NCBI GenBank assembly: GCA_030524635.1
Contig: JAUNGG010000003.1
Span: 1 to 64,000 of the forward strand
Reading direction: 5' to 3'
DNA: 64,000 bases
From: Lachnospiraceae bacterium
GTDB lineage: Bacteria > Bacillota > Clostridia > Lachnospirales > Lachnospiraceae
Position 1 is the stretch's first letter; every line of letters begins with the position of its first letter. The notes under the pieces are model-generated. The model was not told the origin of the DNA and made no database searches. It was given only the letters and a program-made list of their open reading frames with translations. Made by a program: the position numbers and the translations under genes. Below are positions 4,167 through 18,912 of this stretch, piece after piece.

Positions 4167-4450
4167 CTATGGGGTGATTTTCTGGGCTGCTGTTTTCGAA
4201 AATTCGGTGGTTACCAGATCCTCATAGGGAACCTGGGCGGAAAGCTCCCCGCCTTCCTCCAGGATATTTTCCAGGAGAAGAAAGCTTTCTTCTTCAAAGA
4301 TGGTATCTGCTTTCCAGGTGTTCTGGGATTGGTACCGTTCTACGATTCTGATCAGAGACTGGAGGTCAGTTTCTTTAAATTGAGGCTGAATGGTTTTGGC
4401 AATCTCCTCAGGAGTGTGAGAATTTACGTAGTTCAGGCCTTTTTGGATGG
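4167..4450 (-). pseudogene. ABC substrate-binding protein, C-terminal fragment (split by the island)
   Basis: The minus-strand reading encodes the last 91 residues of a COG0715-type substrate-binding protein, from IQKGLNYVNSHTPEEIAK to the stop. Its missing N-terminal part is at 15798-16543, about 11 kb away on the same strand. Joining both at the TGGATGG repeat keeps frame (TNAIQ followed by KGLNY) and gives about 340 aa, the normal family length. The reading continues upstream into island DNA to an ATG at 4511, but those first residues are not family-like. It is very probably not expressed as a functional protein. Confidence 0.85.
4431..4450. repeat. Left attachment site of the island
   Basis: GTTCAGGCCTTTTTGGATGG matches the right junction at 15785-15804 in 16 of 20 positions, including an identical TGGATGG (4444-4450). 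This heptamer is the likely crossover core. Confidence 0.7.
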
Positions 4451-4500
4451 GATGGAACGAAAGATACCAGAGGCATGTCAATAAGCCATGGTCTGCCTGT

Positions 4501-5730
4501 TTAATTAACATGGATTTTTATACGATACTCCTTTGGGGTCATTCCCTGATACTTCTTAAATACTCTGGTAAAATAATTAGCATCTGGAAAGCCACAATGG
4601 AGGGCAATGCTTTGAATGGAATTATGAGTAGTATTTAAAAGGATCAAAGCCTGACGAATCCGTGTTGTATTAATATAATTGGTGATTGTCATTCCTACCT
4701 CCTTTTTAAACAGGGCAGACAGGTAGCTGTTTGTAACAGAATGCATTTGCGCCATGCTGTCTAAAGACAGGTCTTCCTGATAATGGAAGTCAATATAGTC
4801 CAGACAATTCTGCACAATATAGGTGTAGCTCTGCCGTGAATAATTTTTGACCAGCAGGCAGTATTTGCGGATCATAGTGGTAGAGAGGATCTGAAGCTGA
4901 TGCATGCTGGTAGAATTCTCAATTTGTATGGCAAGCTGGGTGGAAATATGGTCAATGTGCAGAGGGTGTACATAGCCTGCCTGAGCGGCTTTCCGCAATA
5001 ATGTATTTTGCACAAAGAGCAGATTTTTCATATTTCTGATTGGATCAGCATTTCGAGGAGCTATTTTAAACTGACTCCATTTCATATGGATTGCCAGAGC
5101 CTCATCGGTATTTCCAAGTGTCACTGCATTCATTAAATCCGCTTCTGCCTGATAGCGTGCTTCCAGAGCCGAGATGGAAACGGAAGGAAGCTGGCGGATC
5201 GGATAATCTCTGTAATTAGGGAGGAAGGTACCTGCCGCTGCAGTGTCTGCCATCAAAAATTTTGTCTGTTTTCCTAAAAGTTCCGCAATAAAATAATGTA
5301 ACGTAGAGCGCCACACATATATGGAGGAGATCAAAGGAATCCGGTTGAAAAATTCCTGGACATCCTGGTGAAGCTCAGGAGGGACCTGATATTTCTGTAT
5401 AAATTCCTGAAAAACGGAAATCGTGACTTCCTGGAAGACAACAGGACCAATGATGCAGTAATGGTATGGGTAATCTGCCTGGAGCTCCTTTGGAAATGCA
5501 AATATCGTATAGTGTAAGCAGCCCAAATCTTCAAAATCAAAAACGATGTAGGGCTGAACGTTTGACTCGATGTGATGGATTAAATGCTCATAGCTGTATT
5601 GCCCGGAAATTTGTTGGCGGAATCCATAATCAACTTCTGCCATATTGGCATAAGGCGGTGTAAGCAGGATTGTCTGGACACCGTAGGTCTGAAAAAGAGA
5701 AATCATAGTATTTAATAAATCCACCTGCAT
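4501..5730 (-). CDS. AraC family transcriptional regulator (island)
   Basis: This 409-aa protein carries a C-terminal AraC double helix-turn-helix over about the last 100 residues. Helix 1 is seen in LSLDSMAQMHSVTNSYLSAL and the second in IQSIALHCGFPDANYFTRVF, ending GMTPKEYR. The long N-terminal region (about 300 aa) is a ligand-sensing part without a clear cupin. It is divergent from the HAD-GH3-transporter run at 5900 and is therefore its probable activator, responding to a sugar (inference). Its 3' end lies 50 bp from the island boundary. Confidence 0.9.
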   Translation of the reverse strand: MQVDLLNTMISLFQTYGVQTILLTPPYANMAEVDYGFRQQISGQYSYEHLIHHIESNVQPYIVFDFEDLGCLHYTIFAFPKELQADYPYHYCIIGPVVFQEVTISVFQEFIQKYQVPPELHQDVQEFFNRIPLISSIYVWRSTLHYFIAELLGKQTKFLMADTAAAGTFLPNYRDYPIRQLPSVSISALEARYQAEADLMNAVTLGNTDEALAIHMKWSQFKIAPRNADPIRNMKNLLFVQNTLLRKAAQAGYVHPLHIDHISTQLAIQIENSTSMHQLQILSTTMIRKYCLLVKNYSRQSYTYIVQNCLDYIDFHYQEDLSLDSMAQMHSVTNSYLSALFKKEVGMTITNYINTTRIRQALILLNTTHNSIQSIALHCGFPDANYFTRVFKKYQGMTPKEYRIKIHVN

Positions 5731-5899
5731 ATTTTACGCTCCTGTATCTGTTTTTATCATTATATCATAAAATTCAGCAATAATAGCATATTTTTGCTCT
5801 AAAAATAATGCAAGCACAAAAACATGCTACTTTTGCAAAATTCTGTTTGTGTTTTATCGTGAGCATTTCCTTTATAGTGAAGAAAAAGGAGGGAGCACA

Positions 5900-6622
5900 A
5901 TGGCAATATTAACAAATTACAAAAAAAAGAAAGAGTATCTGATCTGTATTGATTCCGATGGATGTGCAATGGATACCATGGACATCAAGCATATCCAATG
6001 TTTTGGACCATGCATGATTTCTGAGTGGAATCTGGAGCCATGGCGGGAGCAGGCTTTGCGCAAATGGAATGAGGTGAATCTTTATAGTATGACCAGAGGC
6101 ATGAACCGGTTTAAAACGCTTGCAATGGTTCTGCAATGGGTCGATGACACTTGCTGCAGGATAGAGGATATCAATAGTCTTGCAGATTGGGTGAACTATG
6201 CAGATGAATTATCCAATGCTTCCCTGAAACGGGAGCTTGAAAGAACAGGATGTCTGATATTTCAGAAAGCGTTTGACTGGTCTGTTGCGGTAAATCAATC
6301 CATCACCCTGCTGCCGGATGAGTTCAAAAAGCCCTTTGGGGGAGTAAAAGAAGCAATTGAAGCGGCACATCAGATTGCCGATATCGCAATTGTTTCTTCC
6401 GCCAATCGGGAGGCTGTAGTGGAAGAATGGGAAAAGTATGGATTGATGCAGTTTGTGGATGTGGTGCTGACGCAGGATATGGGAAGCAAAGCATACTGTA
6501 TCCGCGAAATGAAAAATTATGGGTATGAAGCAGACCATATTCTTATGGTAGGGGATGCTCCAGGCGACCGTGAGGCGGCAGAAAGAAATCAGGTGTATTA
6601 TTACCCGATTCTGGTAAGGTGA
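5900..6622 (+). CDS. HAD family hydrolase, probably truncated by an in-frame TGA
   Basis: The 240-aa product has the HAD motifs in order: motif I DSDGCAMDT near residue 18, motif II Ser in IVSSAN, motif III Lys in GSKAYC, and motif IV GDAPGD near residue 225. It is likely a phosphatase for a small sugar phosphate. ATG 5900 follows AAAGGAGGG. The TGA at 6620-6622 sits in an otherwise open frame that continues 38 codons (see 6623-6739) with protein-like sequence, so the C-terminus has probably been lost by a nonsense mutation. Core motifs remain, so activity may persist. It is first in the run leading to the GH3 and transporter genes. Confidence 0.82.
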   Translation: MAILTNYKKKKEYLICIDSDGCAMDTMDIKHIQCFGPCMISEWNLEPWREQALRKWNEVNLYSMTRGMNRFKTLAMVLQWVDDTCCRIEDINSLADWVNYADELSNASLKRELERTGCLIFQKAFDWSVAVNQSITLLPDEFKKPFGGVKEAIEAAHQIADIAIVSSANREAVVEEWEKYGLMQFVDVVLTQDMGSKAYCIREMKNYGYEADHILMVGDAPGDREAAERNQVYYYPILVR

Positions 6623-6739
6623 GAGGATGATTCCTGGAAGCGATTCTTGACGGATGCTCTTGGAAAATTTGAACGAGGCGGTTTTGGCGGCAGTTATCAG
6701 GATAAGCTGCTGCAGGAGTTTGAGGATAATTTATCTTAA
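6623..6739 (+). pseudogene. In-frame C-terminal extension of the HAD gene after TGA
   Basis: The same frame resumes after the TGA and encodes 38 residues starting EDDSWKRFLTDALGKF and ending with TAA at 6737-6739. The composition (aromatic, charged, amphipathic) looks like a genuine HAD C-terminal helix, and there is no start codon with a ribosome site for it alone. Confidence 0.65.
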
Positions 6740-6788
6740 ATATTAAGGAACAGAAGTTTGTTAAAAACAAGAATGCAGAGGAAAAAGC

Positions 6789-7169
6789 ATGTTATCAAAG
6801 AATGTGAAAAATGTGGAATCAGAAGAATCGGTGGATATCAGACAGATGATCGTTCTTGAAGAGGAGCTGAAAGATCTGAAACAGCAGTATGGATTAGAAG
6901 ATAAAAACAAGTGGTGGATACGACTTGGAGATAGGATTGCCAGAGGGACAGATCGGAAAGGAAAAAGGGTAAAACGGAAAACCTATATCCGGCTGGCATT
7001 GACCAGTGGCTGGCTGTGCGGAAGTCATCGTTTTTACAGCGGCCAGAAGCTTCTTGGAAGTTTGTATGCATTATTCTGCTGGACTGGAATTCCATTTGCT
7101 ATGACTTTGATTGACTTAATGATTGTTCTTCCGATGCAGTCCGATGAGTATGGCATGATTGAAGTGTGA
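6789..7169 (+). CDS. TM2 domain-containing protein
   Basis: This 126-aa protein has a charged, partly coiled N-terminal half (EEELKDLKQQYGLEDK) and a C-terminal TM2 domain over residues 65-120. The signature is seen in ALTSGWLCGSHRFYSGQKLLG, followed by a second hydrophobic helix. TM2 proteins are small membrane proteins of unclear function. A GAGGAAAAAGC site precedes the ATG. Its place between the HAD and GH3 genes suggests co-transcription; a link to sugar uptake is inference only. Confidence 0.85.
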   Translation: MLSKNVKNVESEESVDIRQMIVLEEELKDLKQQYGLEDKNKWWIRLGDRIARGTDRKGKRVKRKTYIRLALTSGWLCGSHRFYSGQKLLGSLYALFCWTGIPFAMTLIDLMIVLPMQSDEYGMIEV

Positions 7170-7224
7170 ATCCAGTCGGATATGGATCGCAAAATCCGAT
7201 TGAAATAAAGAAAAGGAGAAGCGT

Positions 7225-8961
7225 ATGGTAGATTTAAAAAAAGCACCATTTTGTTTGAATGAGGAAGGGATCCAGTGGGTAGAGGATACGATTGCGTCCA
7301 TGAGCCTGAATGAAAAGATCGGTCAGCTATTTGTGCTGATGAGAAAGAGTCTGGAGCCAGAGGATATCAAGAATACATTGGATGCCTATCATCAGGGGGG
7401 ACTTCGGTGGCAGGGCGGAGACCGGAATCTGGTATATAATCAGAATAAAACGTACCAGGAGCATTCAAAGATACCGCTGCTGATTGCGTGCAACTGTGAT
7501 AATGGGACGGATACCGTTATCAGTGACGGGACCTATGTTGCGACTCCGGCAGCAGCCGGAGCAGGACAGACCGAAGAGACCTCTTATCATATGGGGCTGA
7601 TAACCGGGCGGGAGGCAACCAGTGTAGGATGCAACTGGGCGTTTAATCCGGTGGTGGATATTTACATGAATTGGAGAAACACGATTGTAAACACGAGAAG
7701 CTTTGGCAGTGATCCCGATGAGGTGATCAAACATGCAAAAGCTTATATCCGCGGTGTCCATGAAAGCAATATGGCCTGCTGCTGCAAACATTTCCCAGGC
7801 GATGGTGTAGAAGAGCGGGATCAGCATCTGGTGCTTGGAGTGAATGATTTAAGTGTAGAAGAGTGGGACAACAGCTTCCGCAGAGTGTATCAGGCCATGA
7901 TTGATGACGGACTGGAAAGTATTATGGTCGGGCATATCGCTTTGCCGGAAATGAGCCGAAAACTCCGCCCTGGCATTAAGGATGAGGAAATTATGCCAGC
8001 TACCTTATCACCGGAGCTTTTAACAGACCTGCTTCGAGGGGAAATGGGATTCAATGGTTTGATTATCACGGATGCTTCCCATATGGGCGGTATTGCATGT
8101 ATGGAGAAACGGGAGATTGCCGTGCCGAAGGCAATCGCTTCCGGCTGTGATATGTTCCTCTTTTCCAATGATGCAGAAGAGGATTTCAATTACATGAAGG
8201 CTGGAATCGAAAATGGGATGATCTCCCCGGAGCGTCTGGACGATGCACTGCACCGCATCCTTGGATTAAAGGCAAAACTTAAGCTGTATCAACCAGAGAT
8301 GTGTGTGCCGGATCCAGAAAAGAAGGAACAGTATATCGGATGCCGGGAGCATAAGGAACTGGTAGCGAAGGCTGCCGATCAATGCGTGACACTGGTGAAG
8401 GATACCAGACATAACCTGCCGGTTGATCCTGAAATTCAGAAGCATGCCAGACTGGTTTATATCCAGTCCACACCAAACAGCAGAGTTTACAAAGGTGATC
8501 CGGTGAAGCAGGTGATTATTGAGGAGCTGGAGCGTGCTGGTTTTTGTGTGGATGCGGCACCGAATTTTTATGATCTGGAGGTGGAAAACGGCCCATCTGC
8601 TGAGAATATGATGCGGATGATGGATTTTGGAAGCATGGAAGAATTTTCAGCAAAGTATGATGTGGTTTTTCTGTTTGTGAATGTCCGCGGATATGCACAG
8701 GAAAATTGTCCGCGGATCCGCTTAAGCTGCAGCCATTCCAGTGAAATGCCATGGTATGCAGCAGAGGTGCCGACCATAGGAATCAGTTTAAACTATACGA
8801 CTCATTTGTTTGATCTGCCCCAGGTGCATACCTTTGTAAATGCTTACGGGTGCAACCGTGAATCCATACGGGCAGCAATAGAAAAAGTCTGTGGTCGGAG
8901 CCAGTTCAAGGGTGTGGCAGAAGAAACCGTATTCTGCGGAAAATGGGATACCAGATTGTAA
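7225..8961 (+). CDS. Glycoside hydrolase family 3 protein
   Basis: This 578-aa protein has a GH3 N-terminal barrel. KHFPGDG is at residues 188-194 followed by a D-Q-H dyad, as in NagZ-type enzymes, and the likely nucleophile is Asp283 in IITDASHMGG. A second alpha/beta domain occupies residues 390-570. No signal peptide is seen, so it acts in the cytoplasm on sugars imported by the adjacent GPH symporter. Beta-N-acetylglucosaminidase or beta-glucosidase are both possible; the D-x-H dyad favours the former type. AAAGGAGAAGC precedes the ATG. Confidence 0.9.
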   Translation: MVDLKKAPFCLNEEGIQWVEDTIASMSLNEKIGQLFVLMRKSLEPEDIKNTLDAYHQGGLRWQGGDRNLVYNQNKTYQEHSKIPLLIACNCDNGTDTVISDGTYVATPAAAGAGQTEETSYHMGLITGREATSVGCNWAFNPVVDIYMNWRNTIVNTRSFGSDPDEVIKHAKAYIRGVHESNMACCCKHFPGDGVEERDQHLVLGVNDLSVEEWDNSFRRVYQAMIDDGLESIMVGHIALPEMSRKLRPGIKDEEIMPATLSPELLTDLLRGEMGFNGLIITDASHMGGIACMEKREIAVPKAIASGCDMFLFSNDAEEDFNYMKAGIENGMISPERLDDALHRILGLKAKLKLYQPEMCVPDPEKKEQYIGCREHKELVAKAADQCVTLVKDTRHNLPVDPEIQKHARLVYIQSTPNSRVYKGDPVKQVIIEELERAGFCVDAAPNFYDLEVENGPSAENMMRMMDFGSMEEFSAKYDVVFLFVNVRGYAQENCPRIRLSCSHSSEMPWYAAEVPTIGISLNYTTHLFDLPQVHTFVNAYGCNRESIRAAIEKVCGRSQFKGVAEETVFCGKWDTRL

Positions 8962-9040
8962 AGCATGGGCAACCGTGAGGGTACGGAACCGTTACAGATA
9001 GATAACGGATGTGCAGCAAAATAGGAAAGGGGAAAAGGAA

Positions 9041-10516
9041 ATGTCTGCAAAAGAACAAAAAGCAGGAATACATCAGGCTAAAATATGGCAGATCGGAGGA
9101 TTTGCGTTTAATAATACTGCCACCAATCTGTATGCAATGTTGATGAATTTTATTGCGTATTATCTGACTGGTTTTGTTGGGGTAAGTGTAGTGATTGCGT
9201 CTACCTTAATTACGACCATGCGTATTTGGGATGGGGTGACGGACCCGTTTATCGGCTATGCAGTCGATAAAACAAATACAAAATTCGGGAAAAATCGTCC
9301 TTTTATGGTAATCGGAAATGCGATCATGCTGATTGCTTCCGGCATCATGCTCCATGTTACACACCGGCTGCCTCAGGGGGCAAGATTCATCTTTTTTATT
9401 GTAACCTACATGATTTATATTGTTGGGTATACGTTTCAATGTGTAGTAACAAAATCAGCACAGACCTGTCTGACCAATGATCCGAAGCAGAGGCCGCTGT
9501 TTGCTATTTTTGATGGTATTTACAATACCGTTGTTTTTGCATTGATACCGATTATGGTTTCCACTTATCTTGTTCCGAAGCATGGCGGTTTCACAGAAAG
9601 CTTTTTCCATGAGGCATGGCTTGATGTAGCGGTTGCTTCTGTTGTGTTGACCTGCATTGCCATATTCTGTATTTCCAGCAAAGACCGTGTGGAATACTTT
9701 GGAATTGGAAAGGTAGTAAAAGTCGGTTTTAAGGATTACTGGGAAGTATTAAAGGGAAACCGTGCGATCCAGATGCTGGTTGTTTCCGCTTCTACGGATA
9801 AGCTGGCATCTACTACAATGACGAATGCTACCACAGGTATTTTGATTTATGCGATCATTTGTGGAAATTATGCTTTATCCGGTGCGGTAGCCGGCTATAC
9901 TTCCATTCCCAATATGCTGTTTCTGATGTTTGGTGCGGGCTGGATCGCTACCCGCCTGGGACAGAAGAAGGCAATGATGGTTGGCACATGGGGAGGAATT
10001 ATTGCAGTAACATTGAATATTCTGTTATTTACGTTTGCGGACCCAACCACCTTATGTTTTCCAGGAATGGAAAGATTTCATGGATGGACCTTTTTTACCG
10101 TTGCGTTTTTGGGACTTTATATTTGCTCCAATGGGTTTTCCAGAATTGCGGGAAGCATTGTAATTCCAATGACAGCAGACTGTGCAGACTATGAAGTATA
10201 TCGTTCCGGAAAGTATGTTCCAGGATTGATGGGAACGCTGTTCAGCTTTGTGGATAAGCTGATCTCTTCTTTGTCCACAACGATCATAGGCCTTGCCTGT
10301 GCAGCAATCGGATTTAAGGATCAGCTTCCTACCGTCGATACACCGTTTAGCTCTGATTTAAAATTTGTAGGCTTGTTCTGTTTCTTCGGATTGACTTTGA
10401 TCGGTCTGATCTGCAATGTGGTAGCCATGAAATTTTATCCTCTGACAAAGGAAAAAATGGAAGAAATCCAGGATAAGATTGCAGAGATCAAGGCGCAGGC
10501 CAGGGCTGAAGTATAA
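9041..10516 (+). CDS. MFS transporter, GPH (glycoside-pentoside-hexuronide):cation symporter
   Basis: This 491-aa integral membrane protein has about 12 hydrophobic helices and the GPH-family features: a WDGVTDPFIGYAVDKTNTKFGKNRP loop after helix 2 (rough residues 65-90) and a related C-terminal half. It would import glycosides with Na+ or H+ for the neighbouring GH3 enzyme. The start at 9041 (MSAKEQK) follows a GGAAAAGG site; an in-frame ATG at 9011 is less likely. It lies 79 bp after GH3 and 21 bp before the MATE gene, consistent with one operon. Confidence 0.92.
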   Translation: MSAKEQKAGIHQAKIWQIGGFAFNNTATNLYAMLMNFIAYYLTGFVGVSVVIASTLITTMRIWDGVTDPFIGYAVDKTNTKFGKNRPFMVIGNAIMLIASGIMLHVTHRLPQGARFIFFIVTYMIYIVGYTFQCVVTKSAQTCLTNDPKQRPLFAIFDGIYNTVVFALIPIMVSTYLVPKHGGFTESFFHEAWLDVAVASVVLTCIAIFCISSKDRVEYFGIGKVVKVGFKDYWEVLKGNRAIQMLVVSASTDKLASTTMTNATTGILIYAIICGNYALSGAVAGYTSIPNMLFLMFGAGWIATRLGQKKAMMVGTWGGIIAVTLNILLFTFADPTTLCFPGMERFHGWTFFTVAFLGLYICSNGFSRIAGSIVIPMTADCADYEVYRSGKYVPGLMGTLFSFVDKLISSLSTTIIGLACAAIGFKDQLPTVDTPFSSDLKFVGLFCFFGLTLIGLICNVVAMKFYPLTKEKMEEIQDKIAEIKAQARAEV

Positions 10517-10537
10517 TTTTTAAGGAGGTTATTTCAG

Positions 10538-11902
10538 ATGGCGGACAACCAGAAAACGGCTCTTTTTGAGCAGATGCCGGTTCCCAGCGCAGTTGCAAAG
10601 CTGGCACTTCCAACCATTCTCAGTTCACTGGTGATGGTGATTTATAATCTTGCTGATACATATTTTGTAGGTATGCTGAATAATCCGGTTGAGAATGCTG
10701 CCGTGACTCTGGCTGCTCCGGTCTTGCTGGCGTTTAACGCAGTCAACAATCTGTTCGGCGTGGGCAGTTCCAGTATGATGAGCAGAGCGCTGGGGATGAA
10801 AGATTATGATACCGTATCCCGCAGTTCCGCATTTGGCTTTTATTGTTCGATCATAAGCGGTATTTTGTTTTCGCTGCTGTGTGTACTGTTTTTTAATCCG
10901 CTTCTGTCCTTATTGGGAGCGGATGCAGGAACTGCTGCAGCAACCGGAAATTACCTGAAATGGGTGGCGATGCTGGGAGCAACACCTGCAATTTTAAATG
11001 TAGTCATGGCATATATGGTGCGTTCGGAAGGAGCGGCGCTTCACGCCAGCATCGGAACCATGAGCGGCTGTATCTTAAATATTATTTTAGATCCTATTTT
11101 TATTCTGCCATGGGGCTTCAATATGGGAGCGGAAGGAGCCGGTCTGGCTACCTTCCTCTCCAATTGTGTGGCATGCCTATATTTTTTCGGATTTCTTTTT
11201 GTGAAACGGAAAGAAACATATATCTGTATCCGCCCCGATAAGGTCAAGATGGAGAAAGCCATTATAATTGGGATCTGTGGTGTAGGAATTCCTGCATCGA
11301 TCCAAAATCTGCTGAACGTAACAGGAATGACAATCCTAAATAATTTTACAGCCGTATATGGAGCAGATGCAGTGGCTGCCATGGGGATTACACAGAAGAT
11401 CAATATGATCCCCACCTATATTGTGCTTGGACTTTCTCAGGGAATCATGCCTTTGATCAGCTATAATTTTTCAAGTGGAAACAGCCGGAGGATGAAAGAA
11501 ACCTATTTGTTTTCTCTGAAAGTGCTGCTTGCCTTTATTCTTGTGTTGGTGGCTGCAGACTATACCTTTGCAGAGCAGCTGACTGGATTTTTTATGAAAA
11601 ATCCATCGATCATTGAATATGGAAGCCGGTTTCTGCGAGGATTCTGCCTGTCGCTTCCCTTTATATGTGTTGAGTTTTTGTCTGTGGGTGTATTTCAGGC
11701 AACCGGAATGGGAAAAGAGGCATTGGTGTTTGCAATCATGCGCAAACTGATTTTGGAGATACCGGCGCTTTTTGTGTTAAACCGGATATATCCGTTATAT
11801 GGACTGGCTTATGCACAGTTGGTAGCGGAGGCGGTTTTGGCTGCTGCAGCTGTGTTGGTACTTACTAAGGTATTTAAAAAATTACCAGCAGGAAACCGTT
11901 AA
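10538..11902 (+). CDS. MATE family efflux transporter
   Basis: This 454-aa protein has about 12 membrane segments and typical MATE features: LPTILSSLVMVIYNLADTYFVG in helix 1-2 and a duplicated architecture (GVGIPASIQNLLNVTGMTILNNF near residue 250). MATE pumps export drugs or metabolites with Na+/H+. AAGGAGG precedes the ATG at good spacing. As the last gene of the sugar run on the island, it could export a by-product or the toxic aglycone of a plant glycoside, which is inference. Confidence 0.92.
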   Translation: MADNQKTALFEQMPVPSAVAKLALPTILSSLVMVIYNLADTYFVGMLNNPVENAAVTLAAPVLLAFNAVNNLFGVGSSSMMSRALGMKDYDTVSRSSAFGFYCSIISGILFSLLCVLFFNPLLSLLGADAGTAAATGNYLKWVAMLGATPAILNVVMAYMVRSEGAALHASIGTMSGCILNIILDPIFILPWGFNMGAEGAGLATFLSNCVACLYFFGFLFVKRKETYICIRPDKVKMEKAIIIGICGVGIPASIQNLLNVTGMTILNNFTAVYGADAVAAMGITQKINMIPTYIVLGLSQGIMPLISYNFSSGNSRRMKETYLFSLKVLLAFILVLVAADYTFAEQLTGFFMKNPSIIEYGSRFLRGFCLSLPFICVEFLSVGVFQATGMGKEALVFAIMRKLILEIPALFVLNRIYPLYGLAYAQLVAEAVLAAAAVLVLTKVFKKLPAGNR

Positions 11903-11941
11903 GTAACCAGTGTTTTTTCATGATAATCAAATCAATTATTG

Positions 11942-11973
11942 CAGATAGGGCAGGGTGAAACCTGCCCTATCTG
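11942..11973. terminator. Strong hairpin after the MATE gene
   Basis: A perfect 13-bp stem (11942-11954 with 11961-11973) with a 6-nt GTGAAA loop follows the MATE stop codon. There is no T tract on the + strand, so termination may be weak or Rho-dependent; the hairpin still marks the operon end. Confidence 0.6.
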
Positions 11974-12075
11974 TATGAAAAACAGTTTGCCACAACTAAC
12001 AGGGCAAATTCCAGGTAGTAGGACAAAATACCGATCAATATATATGGTAAAAACTGATATCGGCGGTGAAGAAGC

Positions 12076-12180
12076 ATGCCTGTAAGAAAAGGAGTTGCTC
12101 TGGTTATTCAAGCAGCGTATAAGAGCGGTGTGATCAATTTCGAAACATACTGCCAGATCAAAAGGAAGTATCATATCTGA
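12076..12180 (+). CDS. Small ORF (34 aa) coupled to the recombinase
   Basis: ATG 12076 opens a 34-aa reading (MPVRKGVALVIQAAYKSGVI, then NFETYCQIKRKYHI) whose TGA overlaps the recombinase ATG (A of TGA shared). This arrangement suggests translational coupling. I do not recognise the peptide; it is basic and helical. An in-frame stop at 12067-12069 excludes a longer upstream start. The ribosome site is weak (GGTGAAGAAG). Confidence 0.55.
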   Translation: MPVRKGVALVIQAAYKSGVINFETYCQIKRKYHI

Positions 12181-13952
12181 TGGAAAAAAAGAGAGTCGTT
12201 TTTTACGGAAGGGTAAGCACCCAGAGCGATGAGCAGCTATCCGCTCTGGGGAATCAGATGACATGGTACGATCAGCTTCTTATGCAGCATCCGGAGTGGA
12301 CCGTGGTGGATAAGTACGAGGATGCTGGTGTGACCGGCACAAGTGTCTGCAAACGAAGAGGATTCCAGCAAATGCTGGAGGATGGTATCAAGCGGCATAA
12401 GTATGATTTGATTGTCACAAGAGAAACCAGGCGATTTGCCCGTAACACCGTAGATGCCTTGTCCTATGTGCGGCTTTTAAAGCAGAATGGGATTGAGGTT
12501 TATTTCGTCAATGATGGGATTCGTACCATATCGGACAATGACGGCGAGCTGCGGCTCAGCATTATGGCAACCATTGCTCAGGAAGAAAGCAGAAAGACTT
12601 CTGAAAATGTACGGGCCGGGCAGCGGATTTCCCGGCAGAAGGGAGTATTAAGAGGCAGCGGAAATATTTTAGGCTACAAACGAGTGGGAAAGAATCAATA
12701 TGAGATTGACCCGGAGCAGGCTCTGATCGTCAGAAAGATTTATGATTGGTATGTGAATGGGGACGGAATGCGGGTGATTCAACGAAGGCTGGAGGGGCAG
12801 GGATACCAGACCGCTACCGGTAAAAGCCATTGGCAGCTGCAGGTGATAGCGGATATTTTGAGCAATCCCTTTTATACCGGCAGGCAAAGGCAGTTATGCA
12901 GGGTTTCGGATGGATACCTTACGCAGAAGCGGGTAAAAAACGATCCGGACAAAATGGAATATATCAGAGGAAATTATGAGCCTCTTATTTCGGAGGAACT
13001 GTTTGAGGAAGTAAAGCACATTCGGGAGAGGCGTTATAATAAAAGGAACAGCAGGGGAAAGAGGGAGAGCAAAAGTGTCTGGTGCGGAAAAACCTTATGC
13101 GGCTGCGGCTGTGGAACGGTGCGGAGGATTGCCAGCGGAGAGGAATTTATTTTCATCTGTCATTCCCAGCATACCCGGGGGATCAGGAAGAAAACGGAGA
13201 CAGGAGAAACGGATCGGGGCAAAACGGGCAGCAGGGAATCAGAAGAAGCCTGTACACGGAGAACAATCCTGGAATGGAAGCTTGACATGATCGCCCACTA
13301 TGTAATCAATGATGTATGGAAAAACAGCAGAGAGGATATCAGCCGGGCTCTTGAAATCATCGCAGAATGTTATAAGGAAAAAGATACCCTTAGCCAGTTG
13401 GAGAGTGACACCATAAAAAATAAGCTGGAAAAATTGGAGAAGAGGAAGCGGGGATTAATGGATATGAGGGCAGATGGAGAAATCACAAAAGAGGAGTACG
13501 CTGTGAAAAAGCAGGAGTGTGACATCGAGATTTGTAATCTAAAGGTTTTGATTGCAAAAGCAGATACAGATCGAAGTGATTCCAAAGATTTTGATGAGAG
13601 GATCAGCAGCATTCAGTCAGCGATGAAAAGTATATTTGATCTGTCAAAGCCGAAATTGAACAAGAATGTAGTTGATGGCTTTATCTGGAAGCTTGTTCAT
13701 ATTTCAGATAATGAATTTGATCTCTATTTGAGCATGGGAAGTGACAGCTTTGGCAGTGCTGGAACAGAGGAAAAGGTGATTCGCTATAAGGTGTTTGAAT
13801 ATCCTAACCCAGAGAGAGCGGAGAGAATAAAATGCACGAAATTAAAAACCATGCGGTTGACCTATGAGGATGCAGTCAGATACCGGGCAATGAGCGGCAG
13901 AAAGGTGATGAAAAATAAGTGGGAGGACCTTTTGGTTAATATTTATATTTAG
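12180..13952 (+). CDS. Large serine recombinase (island integrase)
   Basis: This 590-aa protein has a resolvase N-terminal catalytic domain with YGRVSTQ (catalytic Ser13) and the RETRRFARNTVDAL helix. A recombinase domain (about residues 150-260, ILGYKRVGKNQYEIDPEQA) follows. A Cys-rich zinc ribbon region lies around 300 (CGKTLCGCGCG), then a long coiled coil at 385-470 typical of large serine integrases. It should cut and rejoin att sites with a 2-bp core, fitting the short TGGATGG repeat at the island ends. The ATG overlaps the stop of the 34-aa ORF. Confidence 0.93.
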   Translation: MEKKRVVFYGRVSTQSDEQLSALGNQMTWYDQLLMQHPEWTVVDKYEDAGVTGTSVCKRRGFQQMLEDGIKRHKYDLIVTRETRRFARNTVDALSYVRLLKQNGIEVYFVNDGIRTISDNDGELRLSIMATIAQEESRKTSENVRAGQRISRQKGVLRGSGNILGYKRVGKNQYEIDPEQALIVRKIYDWYVNGDGMRVIQRRLEGQGYQTATGKSHWQLQVIADILSNPFYTGRQRQLCRVSDGYLTQKRVKNDPDKMEYIRGNYEPLISEELFEEVKHIRERRYNKRNSRGKRESKSVWCGKTLCGCGCGTVRRIASGEEFIFICHSQHTRGIRKKTETGETDRGKTGSRESEEACTRRTILEWKLDMIAHYVINDVWKNSREDISRALEIIAECYKEKDTLSQLESDTIKNKLEKLEKRKRGLMDMRADGEITKEEYAVKKQECDIEICNLKVLIAKADTDRSDSKDFDERISSIQSAMKSIFDLSKPKLNKNVVDGFIWKLVHISDNEFDLYLSMGSDSFGSAGTEEKVIRYKVFEYPNPERAERIKCTKLKTMRLTYEDAVRYRAMSGRKVMKNKWEDLLVNIYI

Positions 13953-13967
13953 CGGAACGGTTTATCA

Positions 13968-13997
13968 TTGCTTTCAAGGGAATGCATGATATATAAT
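13968..13997 (+). promoter_or_regulatory. Promoter of the AAA/PD-(D/E)XK gene
   Basis: TTGCTT (13968-13973) and TATAAT (13992-13997) are spaced by 18 bp. The 36-nt stretch 13966-14001 is nearly repeated at 16669-16704 upstream of the MoxR gene. Confidence 0.55.
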
Positions 13998-14056
13998 GAT
14001 AGTACGTTAAGGATAGACTGTGATTGATAGAAAGTGCGAGAGAAGGGTGGGTTTGC

Positions 14057-15739
14057 ATGAGTGACTTAAAAATTCCTGTAGGGGTTTCTGATTTTGGAAA
14101 AATCCGCGAAAATGGATACTATTATATTGATAAAAGCGGACTGATTCCAGAACTGCTTAAGACGGAATCCACGGAGGCAACCTTGATCACTCGCCCCCGT
14201 CGTTTTGGCAAGACGCTTGGAATGAGTATGCTGGCTCATTTCTTTGATATCCGCGAGGACAGCAGGGCATTATTTGAAGGCTTGGAGGTATCAAAGAATC
14301 AAAGGATCTGTACGGAATGGATGAATCAGTACCCAACGCTGTTTGTCACATTTAAAGATGTTGATGGACTGACTTTCACCAGTGCATATGGACGTCTTCA
14401 GGGGCAGATTGCAGATTTATGCAAAAAATATGTTTATCTGACGGAGAGCAGTGCAGTTGATGAAGATGATAAGAAGATATTCTTTCGGCTGAAGGCCGAA
14501 GAGGCCAGCGAAGCGCAGGTGAGCCGTTCTCTGAGTGTTTTGCTGAGAATGATGCATGCTTATTACGGGAAACCGGCTATTTTACTCCTGGATGAATACG
14601 ACGTTCCGGTGGTGAAGGCAAGCAGCAATGGTTATTATGACAAGATGCTGGAAGTGATCAAAACGATTATGAGCACGGCGCTCAAGGATAACGATTCCCT
14701 TCGCTTTGCAGTTGTTACAGGCTGTCTGCGAATTACGAAAGAAAGTATCTTTACAGGAACCAATAACTTTACAACGAATACGATTTCCGATAACCGCTAT
14801 AATGAATTTTTTGGATTTACTCATGAAGAAGTGAAAAAGTTTTTGCGTGATGCTGATTGTGAAGAACGTTTGGAGAACGTTCAAGCCTGGTATGACGGAT
14901 ATCATTTTGGGGATTTGAATGTTTACTGTCCCTGGGATGTGCTGAATTATGTGAAAAAACTGATCACGGAGGGAGTGGGAACGCCGGAAAACTTTTGGGA
15001 GCATACCAGTGACAATGGGATTATTGTCTCATTTCTGGAGCGCACCGATTTTGCTGTGGGAGAGAAGTTTGAAATTTTGCTGAAGGGTGATTATATCAAA
15101 GAGGTTGTTATGGAAAACCTGACCTATGATTTTTTAACCGCAACAGAGGAAAATCTGTGGAGCCTTTTGTATTTGACAGGATATTTGACCCATGTCAGAA
15201 CGGAAGAGCTGGAGGCGGGGGATCGGCTGGAAGGTAAGCAGGTTGCTCTGAAAATTCCGAATGCAGAGGTCATGGATATTTTTCGAAAAAGTGTTGTAGA
15301 ATGGTTCAACAAAAAAGCGGTACGAAGTGACAGGCACGAATTATTTCATGGGATATGGAACGGAGAAGCAGAAAAACTGACAGAGCTTCTGTCTAACCTG
15401 CTGTTTGATACGATCAGCTTTCATGATTATGCGGAAAGCTTTTATCATGCTTTTATCACAGGATTGTTGTCTGGTGCCGGGTATGTAGTGGAGTCAAATC
15501 ACGAAAATGGTCTTGGCAGGCCGGATATTGTAATCAAGGACAGAAGCAAACGCCGTGCCGTTGTGATTGAAATAAAAATTGCAGATTCGGAGCAGCATTT
15601 GAAACAGAGATGTAAAGAAGCGTTGAAGCAGATTGAACAGAAGAAATATGCAAAACGGATCGAAGGAAGCGGTTTTAAAACGGTGATCCGCTTTGGGATT
15701 GCTTTTTATCAGAAGAGCTGCCTGGTTGAAAAGGGGTAA
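14057..15739 (+). CDS. AAA-ATPase with C-terminal PD-(D/E)XK nuclease domain (DUF1703 type)
   Basis: This 560-aa protein starts MSDLKIPVGVSDFGKIRENG, typical of the AAA-ATPase-like/DUF1703 family. A Walker A variant RPRRFGKT lies near residue 50, a Walker B-like LLLDEYD near 180, and a C-terminal nuclease core G-RPDIVI...VVIEIK near 500-520. ATG 14057 follows GAAGGGTGGG; a TTG at 14024 is an alternative. Such genes are multicopy in gut Clostridia and Bacteroidetes and of unknown role; a defence or mobile function is often suspected. It is the last island gene, ending about 60 bp before the right boundary. Confidence 0.88.
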   Translation: MSDLKIPVGVSDFGKIRENGYYYIDKSGLIPELLKTESTEATLITRPRRFGKTLGMSMLAHFFDIREDSRALFEGLEVSKNQRICTEWMNQYPTLFVTFKDVDGLTFTSAYGRLQGQIADLCKKYVYLTESSAVDEDDKKIFFRLKAEEASEAQVSRSLSVLLRMMHAYYGKPAILLLDEYDVPVVKASSNGYYDKMLEVIKTIMSTALKDNDSLRFAVVTGCLRITKESIFTGTNNFTTNTISDNRYNEFFGFTHEEVKKFLRDADCEERLENVQAWYDGYHFGDLNVYCPWDVLNYVKKLITEGVGTPENFWEHTSDNGIIVSFLERTDFAVGEKFEILLKGDYIKEVVMENLTYDFLTATEENLWSLLYLTGYLTHVRTEELEAGDRLEGKQVALKIPNAEVMDIFRKSVVEWFNKKAVRSDRHELFHGIWNGEAEKLTELLSNLLFDTISFHDYAESFYHAFITGLLSGAGYVVESNHENGLGRPDIVIKDRSKRRAVVIEIKIADSEQHLKQRCKEALKQIEQKKYAKRIEGSGFKTVIRFGIAFYQKSCLVEKG

Positions 15740-15784
15740 GCCTGCTGATCAAAAAGTAAAGGGGCTGCGGCAGTGGCGTCTTTT

Positions 15785-15804
15785 GTTCAGTGCTATCTGG
15801 ATGG
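15785..15804. repeat. Right attachment site of the island
   Basis: GTTCAGTGCTATCTGGATGG pairs with the left site at 4431-4450 (16 of 20 identical, TGGATGG shared at 15798-15804). Chromosomal coding sequence resumes to the right. Confidence 0.7.
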
Positions 15805-16543
15805 CATTGGTAAACTTCTGGATCACATCCGGATGGGCCTCCAGGTAGCTTTTTTTTGCGCTGTAGGCCGTGTAGGGAACGTAGCCGGACTCTTCTCCCA
15901 GGGACGCCACTACAAATCCGGTATTCTCATGTTCCAGAGTGGTAGCAAAGGGTTCGAATTCTACCGTGTAATCTGCGTCTGATGATGGGAAGGCAGCAGC
16001 CGTCAGGCCGAAATTAATGCTCTGGTCGATGGTAAGGTCAGAAGCAGGGTCCAGGCCATGCTTTTTCAGGATATACTCAAACACCAGTTGAGGCATCCCG
16101 CCTTTTCGTCCCCCCAACACCTTTTTTCCAGCTAAACTTTCCCAGGAAAAATTAGCTTCCGGCTGCCGACCCACCAGGAAATTTCCAGCCCGCTGGGTCA
16201 GCTGGGCGAAGTTGACGGCGTAATCCTTGGATCCGTTGGCGTACGTGTAGATGCTGGCCTCCGATCCCATAAAACCGATATCGGCATCGCCGGATACCAG
16301 GGCGGTCATCACCTTATCTGCACCGGCTCCATTGACCAGAGTCAGGTCGATGCCCTCCTCTTTAAAATAGCCCAGTTCGATGGCGGCATATTGAGGGGCA
16401 TAGAAGATAGAATGGGCCACCTCATTTAGTGTGACCGGAGTCAGGCTGCTGTGTGAAACAGCCCCGGACCGGCAGCCTGACAAGGTTAAGGATGCAGCAA
16501 GCAGGCCGGCCAGAAGACAGGAAAACCTCTTTTTCATTTTCAT
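15798..16543 (-). pseudogene. ABC substrate-binding lipoprotein, N-terminal part (split by the island)
   Basis: The first 249 residues of a COG0715/NMT1-like substrate-binding lipoprotein are intact: a signal peptide with lipobox LSGC (Cys24), then NEVAHSIFYAPQYAAIELGYFKEEGIDL and GGRKGGMPQLVFEYIL. After AIQ the frame runs into island DNA and stops at 15749 with 15 foreign residues. AGGAGG precedes the ATG at 16543. The missing 91 residues are at 4167-4450. The truncated product lacks the C-terminal helices and is probably non-functional. No permease or ATPase partner lies nearby. Confidence 0.88.
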
Positions 16544-16670
16544 AAAATCCTCCTAAAACAAAGCTTAAATAATTACTTTAATACTACATGTTATTAGGAA
16601 AGGAAGGGAGGGGTGACTGTAACCTGATGAAAATATTGCTTATGATTGCAATGATAATGTTAAATGAGCA

Positions 16671-16700
16671 TTGTTTTCAGCGGATTGTATGATATATAAT
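16671..16700 (+). promoter_or_regulatory. Promoter of the MoxR-DUF58-DUF4129 operon
   Basis: TTGTTT (16671-16676) and TATAAT (16695-16700) are spaced by 18 bp, about 40 bp upstream of the MoxR start. It is nearly identical to the promoter at 13968-13997. Confidence 0.6.
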
Positions 16701-16739
16701 GATAACAGGTTGTAAATAAACGGCAATCATGGAGGTATT

Positions 16740-17717
16740 ATGAAAATCGAAGAGTTAAAATCTGCCATCGGCACGGTGATTGTAGGGAGGCAGGATGCAG
16801 TGGAGCTTTTGCTGGCGGCAGTGATTGCCGGGGGACATGTTCTCCTGGAGGATCTTCCGGGGACGGGAAAAACGCTGCTTGCCAAGACCCTGGCGAGAGT
16901 GATGGGATTGGAATTCGGCAGAGTGCAGTTTACGCCGGATCTGATGCCCTCCGATGTGACCGGAATTAATTATTATAACCAGAAGGCGGGGGAATTTATC
17001 TATCGGAAGGGACCCGTGTTTGCCAATATCCTTCTGGCGGATGAGATCAACCGGGCCACGCCGCGGACCCAGTCCAGTCTGTTGGAGGCGATGGAGGAGC
17101 GTCAGGTGACTGTGGATGGGGAGACCAGAAAGCTGCCGGACCCCTTTTTTGTGATTGCAACCCAGAATCCGGTGGAGAGCGCCGGAACCTTTCCGCTGCC
17201 GGAGGCACAGATGGATCGCTTTCTGATGAAACTTTCTCTGGGACTTCCTGGAAAAGATGAGGAGAAACAGATCCTGCGGCGGTTTGAGCGAATGGAGGAG
17301 AATCCCTATGACAATTTGTGTCCGGTGTGCAGCAGACAGGAGCTGATGGCCCTTCAAAGAGAGGGGGAGGCGGTTTATATCCATCCCCAGCTTTTGGATT
17401 ATCTGGTGGAGGTGGTGCAGGCCACCCGTGGAACTTGGGCAAAAGAGCAGGGAGCTTTTGCTGGTGTCAGCCCAAGAGGCAGTCTGGCCTTTTTAAAGGC
17501 AGCGAAGGCCTATGCCCTGGTACAGGGAAGACAGTATGTTGTGCCGGAGGATATCAAGAAGCTGGCAGTTCCTGTCCTGGCCCATCGCCTGGTGCTGGGT
17601 GCGTCCTATGGCTATGGAAGCGTATCCTATGATGAAGGTCAGGTGGGAAGAGGCGAGGCGCTGATCCTGCATATTCTGGATACGGTTCCGGTGCCTACAG
17701 AAGAGTGGAGAGGGTGA
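16740..17717 (+). CDS. MoxR family AAA+ ATPase
   Basis: This 325-aa chaperone-like ATPase has Walker A EDLPGTGKT at residues 37-45, Walker B ILLADEINRA near 100, and the conserved ATQNPVESAGTFPLPEAQMDRF segment. MoxR proteins remodel partner proteins and are typically encoded with DUF58 proteins, as here. GGAGG lies just before the ATG. The next gene starts 1 bp after the stop codon, indicating a tight operon. Confidence 0.95.
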   Translation: MKIEELKSAIGTVIVGRQDAVELLLAAVIAGGHVLLEDLPGTGKTLLAKTLARVMGLEFGRVQFTPDLMPSDVTGINYYNQKAGEFIYRKGPVFANILLADEINRATPRTQSSLLEAMEERQVTVDGETRKLPDPFFVIATQNPVESAGTFPLPEAQMDRFLMKLSLGLPGKDEEKQILRRFERMEENPYDNLCPVCSRQELMALQREGEAVYIHPQLLDYLVEVVQATRGTWAKEQGAFAGVSPRGSLAFLKAAKAYALVQGRQYVVPEDIKKLAVPVLAHRLVLGASYGYGSVSYDEGQVGRGEALILHILDTVPVPTEEWRG

Positions 17718-17718
17718 G

Positions 17719-18912
17719 ATGGGATTTTTGTGGATAGGCGCGGCGGCGTTTCTCATGTTTCTGATCCAGGGGATCGTTTACAGCAGATACTGGGACAGAG
17801 GATTGCAGGCACGGCTTTGGTTTGCACAGCCTGCCCTCCGGGAAGGGGAGCGGGGAGAATTAAAGGAAGTGGTGGAAAATCGAAAGAGGATGCCCCTTCC
17901 GGTGCTTCATGTGAATCTGCAGATCAATCGGTCTCTTGTGTTTGCCAGTCAGGAGAATACAGCCGTGTCGGATCAGGCTTACCGCCGGGATGTGTTTTCG
18001 GTCCTTCCTTACCAGCAGATCACCAGAACCCTGCCGTTTACTGCGGCAAAGCGGGGATATTATCCCTGCAGGGAGGTGGAGCTGGTGGGGAGAACGCTGT
18101 TTTTTCAGGGGCCTTTTGTGAAAAAAATTCCCCAGCAGACGTCCCTTTATGTGTATCCAAAAGCGATCTCCATGGAACCAGTGAAAGCAGCCTGTCAGGA
18201 GATGCTGGGAGAGTATTTATGGAAAAAGCGATTGTTTGAAGATCCATTTTCCTTCCAGGGAATCCGGGATTATGAACCACATGACAGCTTTCGGCAGGTA
18301 AACTGGAAGGCTTATGGGAGAACGGGACAGCTGAAGGTGAACGTGTTCGAGCACACGGCCATGGCGAAGGCAGAGATCCTGTTAAATCTCAAAGGAGATT
18401 CCATCTGGACAGAGGAGCTCCTTCTGGAAGGGGTGATCCGTGTGGGGGCAGCGCTGGCAGAGCAGTGGATCGCCCTGGGGGTGCCGGTAGGGCTGCAGAC
18501 CAACGGGCGGGATCTGGAAAGCGGCGGCCTGGTGACGGTACGCTCCGGTGCAGGAGCTGCTCATGCCAGAACGATCCTCCAGGCATTAAGCCGGATCGAT
18601 CTGAGCAAAACGGATTTCAGGCAATCGGATGAAGCCTGCAGCCAGGGCTGGACTGCAGGGGGCATGATTCTCTATGTATCCTGCAGTGAGAGGGAAGAGG
18701 ATGTAAGGCAGATAGAAGCCATGCGCCAAAGAGGGGCGCAGATTTTGTGGATCCGTCCCGTGATTTCCAGGATGGCTGAGGACAGGAAGCGGGCATTTTG
18801 GTGCCAAGATGGATCCCAAGGGATCATAACGGGAGCCGGCACCGTGAAAAACCGGCAGCAGAGGCTTTGCATCTACAAAGGGTCTGTTATGGAATGGAGG
18901 GTGGAGGAATGA
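17719..18912 (+). CDS. DUF58 domain-containing protein
   Basis: This 397-aa protein has an N-terminal hydrophobic helix (residues 2-20) and the DUF58 signature near residues 175-205 (FSFQGIRDYEPHDSFRQVNWKA), followed by a VWA-like fold. DUF58 proteins are partners of MoxR ATPases and are thought to act in envelope processes. The start is 1 bp after the MoxR stop, and the stop overlaps the next start (ATGA). Confidence 0.93.
   Translation: MGFLWIGAAAFLMFLIQGIVYSRYWDRGLQARLWFAQPALREGERGELKEVVENRKRMPLPVLHVNLQINRSLVFASQENTAVSDQAYRRDVFSVLPYQQITRTLPFTAAKRGYYPCREVELVGRTLFFQGPFVKKIPQQTSLYVYPKAISMEPVKAACQEMLGEYLWKKRLFEDPFSFQGIRDYEPHDSFRQVNWKAYGRTGQLKVNVFEHTAMAKAEILLNLKGDSIWTEELLLEGVIRVGAALAEQWIALGVPVGLQTNGRDLESGGLVTVRSGAGAAHARTILQALSRIDLSKTDFRQSDEACSQGWTAGGMILYVSCSEREEDVRQIEAMRQRGAQILWIRPVISRMAEDRKRAFWCQDGSQGIITGAGTVKNRQQRLCIYKGSVMEWRVEE

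Follow-up and report, generated by a model that had tools for sequence, protein, structure and literature searches.

An island that carries one large serine recombinase (LSR), and in which no transfer genes were found, has very probably integrated site-specifically into codons 247–249 of a conserved NMT1/THI5-like gene, as one case of a wider pattern in which multiple LSRs use this gene for landing. The island lies in the window (the whole stretch of 64,000 nucleotides analyzed here, from the genome of a Lachnospiraceae gut bacterium, labeled G000). For the window island, we observed the empty site, both junctions, a linked LSR and the reuse of the core by relatives with other cargo.

The split gene and the island junctions

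The first-pass annotation had described two halves of one lipoprotein gene, on one strand and 11 kb apart, that rejoin in frame at TGGATGG (TNAIQ joined to KGLNY, about 340 aa) around an island of 11.35 kb. This description is exact to the base: joined by script at the 7-bp core, the halves give a single open frame of 340 aa, and the distance from core to core is 11,354 bp. ORF calling had prolonged the N-terminal part to 15749 and the C-terminal part to 4511 by island-derived codons. The gene is intact (339 aa) in the closest relative found, a Lachnospiraceae MAG of the same genus (G005), and both halves match this one protein (97 and 95% identity). The corresponding locus (L028) is contiguous, with window positions 4168–4453 aligning to 10571–10286 and positions 15785–18646 to 10308–7447, each at ~95% nucleotide identity. 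The flanking neighbors are the same as in the window (a MoxR-like protein, 97%, and a CBS-domain protein, 100% identical). The uninterrupted gene that had been expected in related genomes was indeed found: both halves are contiguous in one gene at 17 out of 19 related loci. The other two loci, in the congeners G009 and G003, are split at the same core, which is followed by an arm nearly identical to that of the window (GGATGGGATGGAACAAAG).

The two island ends are identical at 16 of 20 positions when aligned (GTTCAGGCCTTTTTGGATGG versus GTTCAGTGCTATCTGGATGG), exactly as initially reported. This similarity represents the likeness of the host half-site to the element’s own arm, since the host sequence of G005 also reads TAGTTCAGGCCTTTTTGGATGG. 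The inferred attP is an imperfect palindrome centered on the TG within the core, with 12 of 18 pairs matching and 10 of 2000 shuffles being as good. The proposal that attB, attL, and attR can be defined to a few bases is thus supported by the G005 empty site, two further islands with identical junctions and the palindrome of the inferred attP. The boundaries also fit an LSR inside the island, as had been suggested, with one island ORF encoding an LSR with Resolvase and Recombinase domains. The remark that the target gene is unusual compared with tRNA sites did not hold, because protein-coding targets are common for serine recombinases, which often integrate inside conserved or dispensable genes according to passages in two papers (PMC10083194, PMC5704250).

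The LSR most likely pairs the attP of a circular form of the island (TTTTGTTC...TG...GAACGAAAG) with attB in the gene. A cut at the central TG of TGGATGG, where we infer the crossover, and a strand swap would then yield attL, attR and the two gene halves. The island may be excised as a circle, and its transfer would probably depend on a helper. All features are listed in Table 1.

Table 1. Features of the split gene and the inserted island in the window (attL and attR cores, gene parts and island ORFs).
Feature	Position	Strand	Evidence
C-terminal part of NMT1/THI5-like substrate-binding lipoprotein, ~residues 248–340	4167..4450	-	95% identity to residues 246–339 of intact G005 protein; adjoins N part in G005
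Core TGGATGG of attL, flanked by host DNA (low side) and island arm GATGGAACGAAAG (high side)	4444..4450	+	Core common to attL of G009 and G003 islands and G005 empty site
Inserted island	4451..15797	+	Absent from G005; 8 ORFs cover 10,482 of 11,347 bases; GC 0.439 versus 0.503 in rest of window
AraC-family regulator (cargo)	4501..5730	-	Pfam HTH_AraC 6.4e-20
HAD-superfamily hydrolase (cargo)	5849..6622	+	Pfam HAD_2 2.1e-11
TM2-domain membrane protein (cargo)	6789..7169	+	Pfam TM2 2.9e-9
Glycoside hydrolase family 3 (cargo)	7225..8961	+	Pfam PF00933 3.5e-64
GPH/MFS_2 sugar symporter (cargo)	9011..10516	+	Pfam MFS_2 1.3e-39
MATE-family transporter (cargo)	10538..11902	+	Pfam MatE 1.3e-41
LSR, 590 aa, likely integrase	12180..13952	+	Pfam Resolvase (PF00239) 4.9e-27 and Recombinase (PF07508) 2.7e-22, both above cut-off; PHROG 95 integrase 7.9e-99; same-site relatives 56–75% identical
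AAA-ATPase_like + PD-(D/E)XK_9 protein, 571 aa	14024..15739	+	Pfam PF09820 5.1e-43, PF08011 1.2e-19
Core TGGATGG of attR, flanked by island arm TTTTGTTCAGTGCTATC (low side) and host CATTGG (high side)	15798..15804	+	Same junction in G009 and G003; arm-plus-core pattern once in window, 0.02 expected
N-terminal part of same NMT1/THI5-like gene, lipobox LSGC, ~residues 1–248	15798..16543	-	97% identity to residues 1–255 of intact G005 protein; Pfam NMT1 2.4e-18

Island content and cargo of same-site islands

Starting from the C half, the island encodes the AraC regulator, the HAD hydrolase, the TM2 protein, the GH3 enzyme, the GPH symporter, the MATE transporter, the LSR and the AAA-ATPase/PD-(D/E)XK protein. 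Judged by the family names, the cargo likely serves the sensing, import and hydrolysis of a glycoside. Neither relaxase nor mobilization or conjugation genes were found among the eight island ORFs with Pfam and PHROGs. Likewise, no PHROG named as a phage structural or packaging function matches these ORFs, some of the PHROG matches being of unknown function, and PADLOC gave no match for the eight proteins. A composite or tandem island with an internal att site was considered and rejected: att patterns are located at 4444 and 15781 only and nowhere else inside the island, with the gap between the MATE and LSR genes read by eye.

The window LSR has no match to DUF4368 at an E-value of 0.001. This domain is present in the LSR of G469 and, according to a passage in PMC10083194, is common in the TndX-like multi-targeting LSR clade. 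All phage and plasmid records share less than 60% identity with the window LSR, and the listed matches covering at least 80% of it are 27–39% identical in phages and 26–36% in plasmids. Viral contigs gave no match to the window LSR patterns.

The islands of G009 and G003 have only the LSR in common with the window island (58.5 and 56.3% identical, respectively). The G009 island is ~17 kb long (L026:3265–17351), and seven of its 14 listed ORFs were scanned. They correspond to a phosphomannomutase, a mannose-1-P guanylyltransferase/isomerase, a glycosyltransferase, a flippase, a tyrosine recombinase, a weak AAA match and one blank. This island resembles an exopolysaccharide cluster accompanied by a tyrosine recombinase, i.e., surface-sugar genes on a mobile island. 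The G003 island is ~6.6 kb long, and the ORFs listed for it encode the LSR and a YDG-domain protein of 1157 aa. The gene is also split at the window site in G286, G165, and G261 (in the latter two over two contigs), while G002 has the C-terminal piece alone, near a contig end. In G009 and G003, the LSR is found by the C-half end, but it lies toward the N-half end in the other four cases (the window, G165, G286, and G261), so that the cargo can be on either side of it.

AAA-ATPase_like/PD-(D/E)XK_9 genes occur in both the window (14024–15739) and the G286 islands of the window LSR clade. In addition, an AAA_14/DUF4143 gene that matches the candidate defense model PDC-S01 adjoins the G286 LSR. 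Besides the window ORF, the loci concerned are L168:82–1824 and L064:15319–16536.

Insertion positions across genomes and their LSR clades

With the intact G005 protein as query, an ortholog was identified in 214 of 397 family genomes, the remaining 183 giving no match at 1e-18. Genomes without a listed near-full-length row were searched further before being scored as split or intact. The 214 genomes comprise 150 listed ones (only the window genome split), 29 with seven splits, 32 with 29 splits (intact in G116, G093, and G279), and G165, G261, and G286 (all split). The ortholog is split in 40 of the 214 genomes and intact in 174, many of these genomes being fragmented drafts. The pieces are located on one contig in 22 split genomes and on different contigs in 14, while four (G287, G196, G393, and G412) have one piece only, which ends at site C. 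We found 45 breaks, which fall at five positions in G005 residue numbers: A at ~74 (nine breaks), B at ~95 (one), C at ~147–150 (22), D at ~193 (nine) and E, the window site, at ~248 (four). Insertions are stacked in one gene in four genomes, with two in G286, G261, and G306 and three in G289. One-contig inserts measure between 1.9 kb (G289) and 48 kb (G080), the latter carrying phage replication genes. Where both ends are comparable, cores and arms vary by site: site D in G286 has the core ATACGGTTGAAT with the arms GGGCAGTATT...AATACTGCCC, and the cores at site C include CAGGTGG (G297) and GGCGGT (G295). This statement is limited to these examples, as the script detected no core or a chance one at several loci.

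An apparent four-piece split with short duplicated ends in G279 (L311, G279:C44) was rejected as a scaffolding effect, since its gaps are runs of N (1071 N), and the gene was scored as intact. We should note that the best 80 of 242 loci in named genomes have most of the gene in one piece, but these loci head a ranked list and are uninformative on the split rate. At G049:C3:53632–57952, two neighboring same-strand matches to the binding-protein gene were found, one near full length and one partial.

As a control, another binding-protein gene of the window genome (G000:C22, 378 aa) was searched in 250 genomes. It matched in 103, six of which were dropped as paralogs (28–33% identity), leaving 97. 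None of these 97 is split by insertion, with two doubtful genomes scored as not split (G119, abutting frameshifted pieces; G207, contig edge). Comparing 40/214 with 0/97 gives a Fisher p-value of 1.6e-7, where the target had an extra follow-up at a laxer limit and the control a single search. The p-values are 6.4e-5 for 36/214 versus 2/97 and 2.3e-4 for 22/214 versus 0/97. Under the strictest count, with one-contig splits only and the doubtful controls taken as split (22/214 versus 2/97), p is 0.011. With a single control gene, the comparison is thin.

Beyond the family, an order-wide sample contains an ortholog in 143 of 295 genomes, and its partial rows add more breaks. At least seven partial rows point to a new position at ~112, with an LSR beside the junction in all four regions fetched (G448, G517, G661, and G658). 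A further one at ~212 is represented by G487, with the pieces on two contigs and an LSR beside one of them. The number of positions thus probably rises from five to seven. Six of the seven lie in well-conserved seven-residue stretches (71st–91st percentile), the exception being ~212 (7th percentile). The intact gene is strongly conserved and its lipobox cysteine invariant. A PDB sequence search returned distant NMT1/THI5-like matches only (best 3qsl, 2.7e-12), and no Rfam match reached the gathering score within 125 kb of sequence surrounding six intact genes. No ABC partner was seen next door at six loci inspected by eye, and no ABC permease or ATPase is present among eight neighbor proteins from five loci.

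In the regions fetched first, an LSR ORF lies at most ~2.1 kb from the junction in 25 of the 26 insertions whose junction was covered, mostly abutting it; for the D insertion of G289, no LSR was found within the 1.8 kb examined. A second set of 20 regions has an LSR beside the junction in 12 cases and 2.3–2.4 kb away in two (G570 and G557), with none seen in six. These six are the false split (L311), three regions concerning the other end or a contig end (L313, L317, and L321) and two for which ~3.5 kb of the insert side was examined (L322 and L327). For G329 and G479, no LSR was seen in the examined stretch of what appear to be site-A insertions.

Because the LSRs had first been found via the gene, LSR-first searches were also run, in which the binding-protein gene was sought within the 1.5-kb flanks of each LSR. 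The clade-C query matched in 16 of 250 genomes: all eight matches of at least 43% identity (own genome included) are located at site C, and the other eight (at most 35%) are not near the gene. With the clade-D query, 14 places in 13 of 250 genomes were found. All four at 46% or above are located at site D, the eight at 33–38% are divided equally between site A and places not near the gene, and the two at 28–29% are not near it. The window LSR (clade E) has matches of at least 54% in five of 397 genomes (window included), four of them in the gene. The fifth, G008:C68 (L067:15282–17045; 54%), is sister to the window clade and lies elsewhere, in a genome with an intact gene; its target was not found.

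Insertion positions largely go with LSR clades. In a tree of 39 rows, the site labels need six changes, which is the minimum (shuffled mean 22.2), and in a tree of 69 rows they need ten versus a minimum of eight (shuffled mean 39.6). The E and F LSRs form one clade each, and so do the C LSRs except that of G469. One larger clade, whose target may have shifted within the gene, contains the B and D LSRs and six of the eight A rows, along with LSRs not near the gene. Exceptions occur in three genomes: the site-C LSR of G469 and the site-A LSRs of G570 and G557 belong to other clades. The LSR of G212 groups beside the site-A LSRs, with no part of the gene within its 1.5-kb flanks.

Origin of the pattern and relation to known systems

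We propose that Lachnospiraceae and neighboring families share this landing gene, in which several LSR lineages would have settled on different attB sites. A probable reason is that the gene is dispensable, strongly conserved and mostly present in a single copy: recognizing it would open a wide range of hosts to an element at little cost. A broader version, which we put forward tentatively and regard as possible rather than probable, is that of an order-wide docking gene with at least seven attB sites in one ORF. Most sites would be held by their own LSR lineage, serving elements of 2–5 kb, cargo islands of ~7–18 kb and inserts of ~37–48 kb (at least one phage-like), and loss of the gene would be neutral or even useful in the gut.

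The joined gene differs from that of G005 by 41 synonymous and seven non-synonymous changes (dN/dS 0.047), with values for three neighbor genes of 0.08 (moxR), 0 (CBS) and 0.19 (amidase-like). Purifying selection thus acted on the lipoprotein gene during most of the period since the window and G005 genomes diverged, and the insertion is recent or often reversed. A programmed rearrangement, in which a skin/gin-like switch is excised in some cell state and restores the lipoprotein, would agree with the exact in-frame rejoining and with the absence of decay in both halves (dN/dS 0.038 and 0.07). Moreover, there are known cases of an LSR element restoring the gene that it interrupts, such as gin in gerE as described in a passage of PMC5595907. 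However, a young insertion accounts equally for the absent decay, and any element of this kind restores its target as a by-product when it is excised precisely. The interrupted gene is not among the known sporulation genes, and the stacked insertions in G286, G261, G306, and G289 would hardly be tolerable for a switch. We therefore consider a switch very unlikely.

It is likewise very unlikely that loss of the lipoprotein, for instance as a phage receptor, was itself selected and that gene-breaking elements spread for that reason. The protein does look like a lipoprotein, given the invariant lipobox cysteine, and at least one insert is phage-like (that of G080), but the strong conservation of the intact gene argues against such selection. 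Second and third insertions in a broken gene add no further loss and thus point to recombinase site preference. A contig-building error that places the halves 11 kb apart can practically be dismissed: G000 is a draft in 100 contigs and runs of N caused the false split in G279, but the sequence is unbroken around both window junctions and the same core is present at the junctions in the separate assemblies of G009 and G003.

Site-specific integration into a landing gene has published counterparts, and both the presence of LSRs in conserved genes and the convergence of unrelated LSRs on one gene are already described in passages of PMC10083194. In this paper, Durrant et al. (2022) report distantly related LSRs converging on one gene, with Mg-chelatase/ATP-dependent protease as the target of 12.4% of predicted site-specific integrases, and also one prolyl-isomerase site. 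The elements described here are similar in having a short att core in a conserved coding gene and distant LSRs converging on it. They differ from the targets given in those passages in that the gene encodes an NMT1/THI5-like lipoprotein, has five, probably seven, positions in one ORF and carries stacked insertions in single genomes. The terms ‘NMT1’ and ‘substrate-binding’ have no occurrences in the main text of PMC10083194. A literature search, covering few subscription papers and supplements, found no report of this NMT1/THI5-like gene, with its several attB sites in one ORF, as an LSR target.

The organization is also analogous to that of SCC/ECC as outlined in part of PMC6222049, with LSR-borne islands, one fixed site and exchangeable cargo. 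Among NCBIfam models, CcrB fits the window LSR best (9.7e-37), but the scores are far below the cut-offs (CcrB 126.8 bits versus 900, CcrC 87.1 versus 900, CcrA 80.3 versus 700). In addition, the island has one LSR instead of a ccrAB pair, targets an NMT1-like gene rather than the rlmH 3′ region and uses the core TGGATGG, not TATCATAA. Like skin, gin, and SP-beta in the account given in part of PMC5595907, the element splits a coding gene that rejoins in frame at a short core, but here the target is an NMT1/THI5-like lipoprotein and not a known sporulation gene. Finally, serine-recombinase IMEs (IME_Rho_tet in MAFF2 ORFs; rumA IMEs) share the Bacillota host, the serine recombinase and a spareable ORF, according to passages in PMC12904643 and PMC5704250, while no relaxase or mobilization gene was found among the eight ORFs of the window island.

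A natural set of LSRs whose attB sites are all located in one gene, itself found in 214 of 397 family genomes, offers a ready comparison for the change of LSR target specificity and, for bacteria that resist engineering, a candidate family of integration tools. A further question is which role a strongly conserved binding lipoprotein without an adjoining ABC partner has, if so many lineages can lose its gene.

At site C, the LSR frame of G402, G295, and G181 continues across the junction into the C-terminal portion of the binding protein, and the resulting ORFs are 863, 811, and 813 aa long, respectively (L152:13626–16217, L156:605–3040, and L165:621–3062). The G295 ORF contains the Pfam domains Resolvase, Recombinase, and NMT1 and is thus a predicted fusion.
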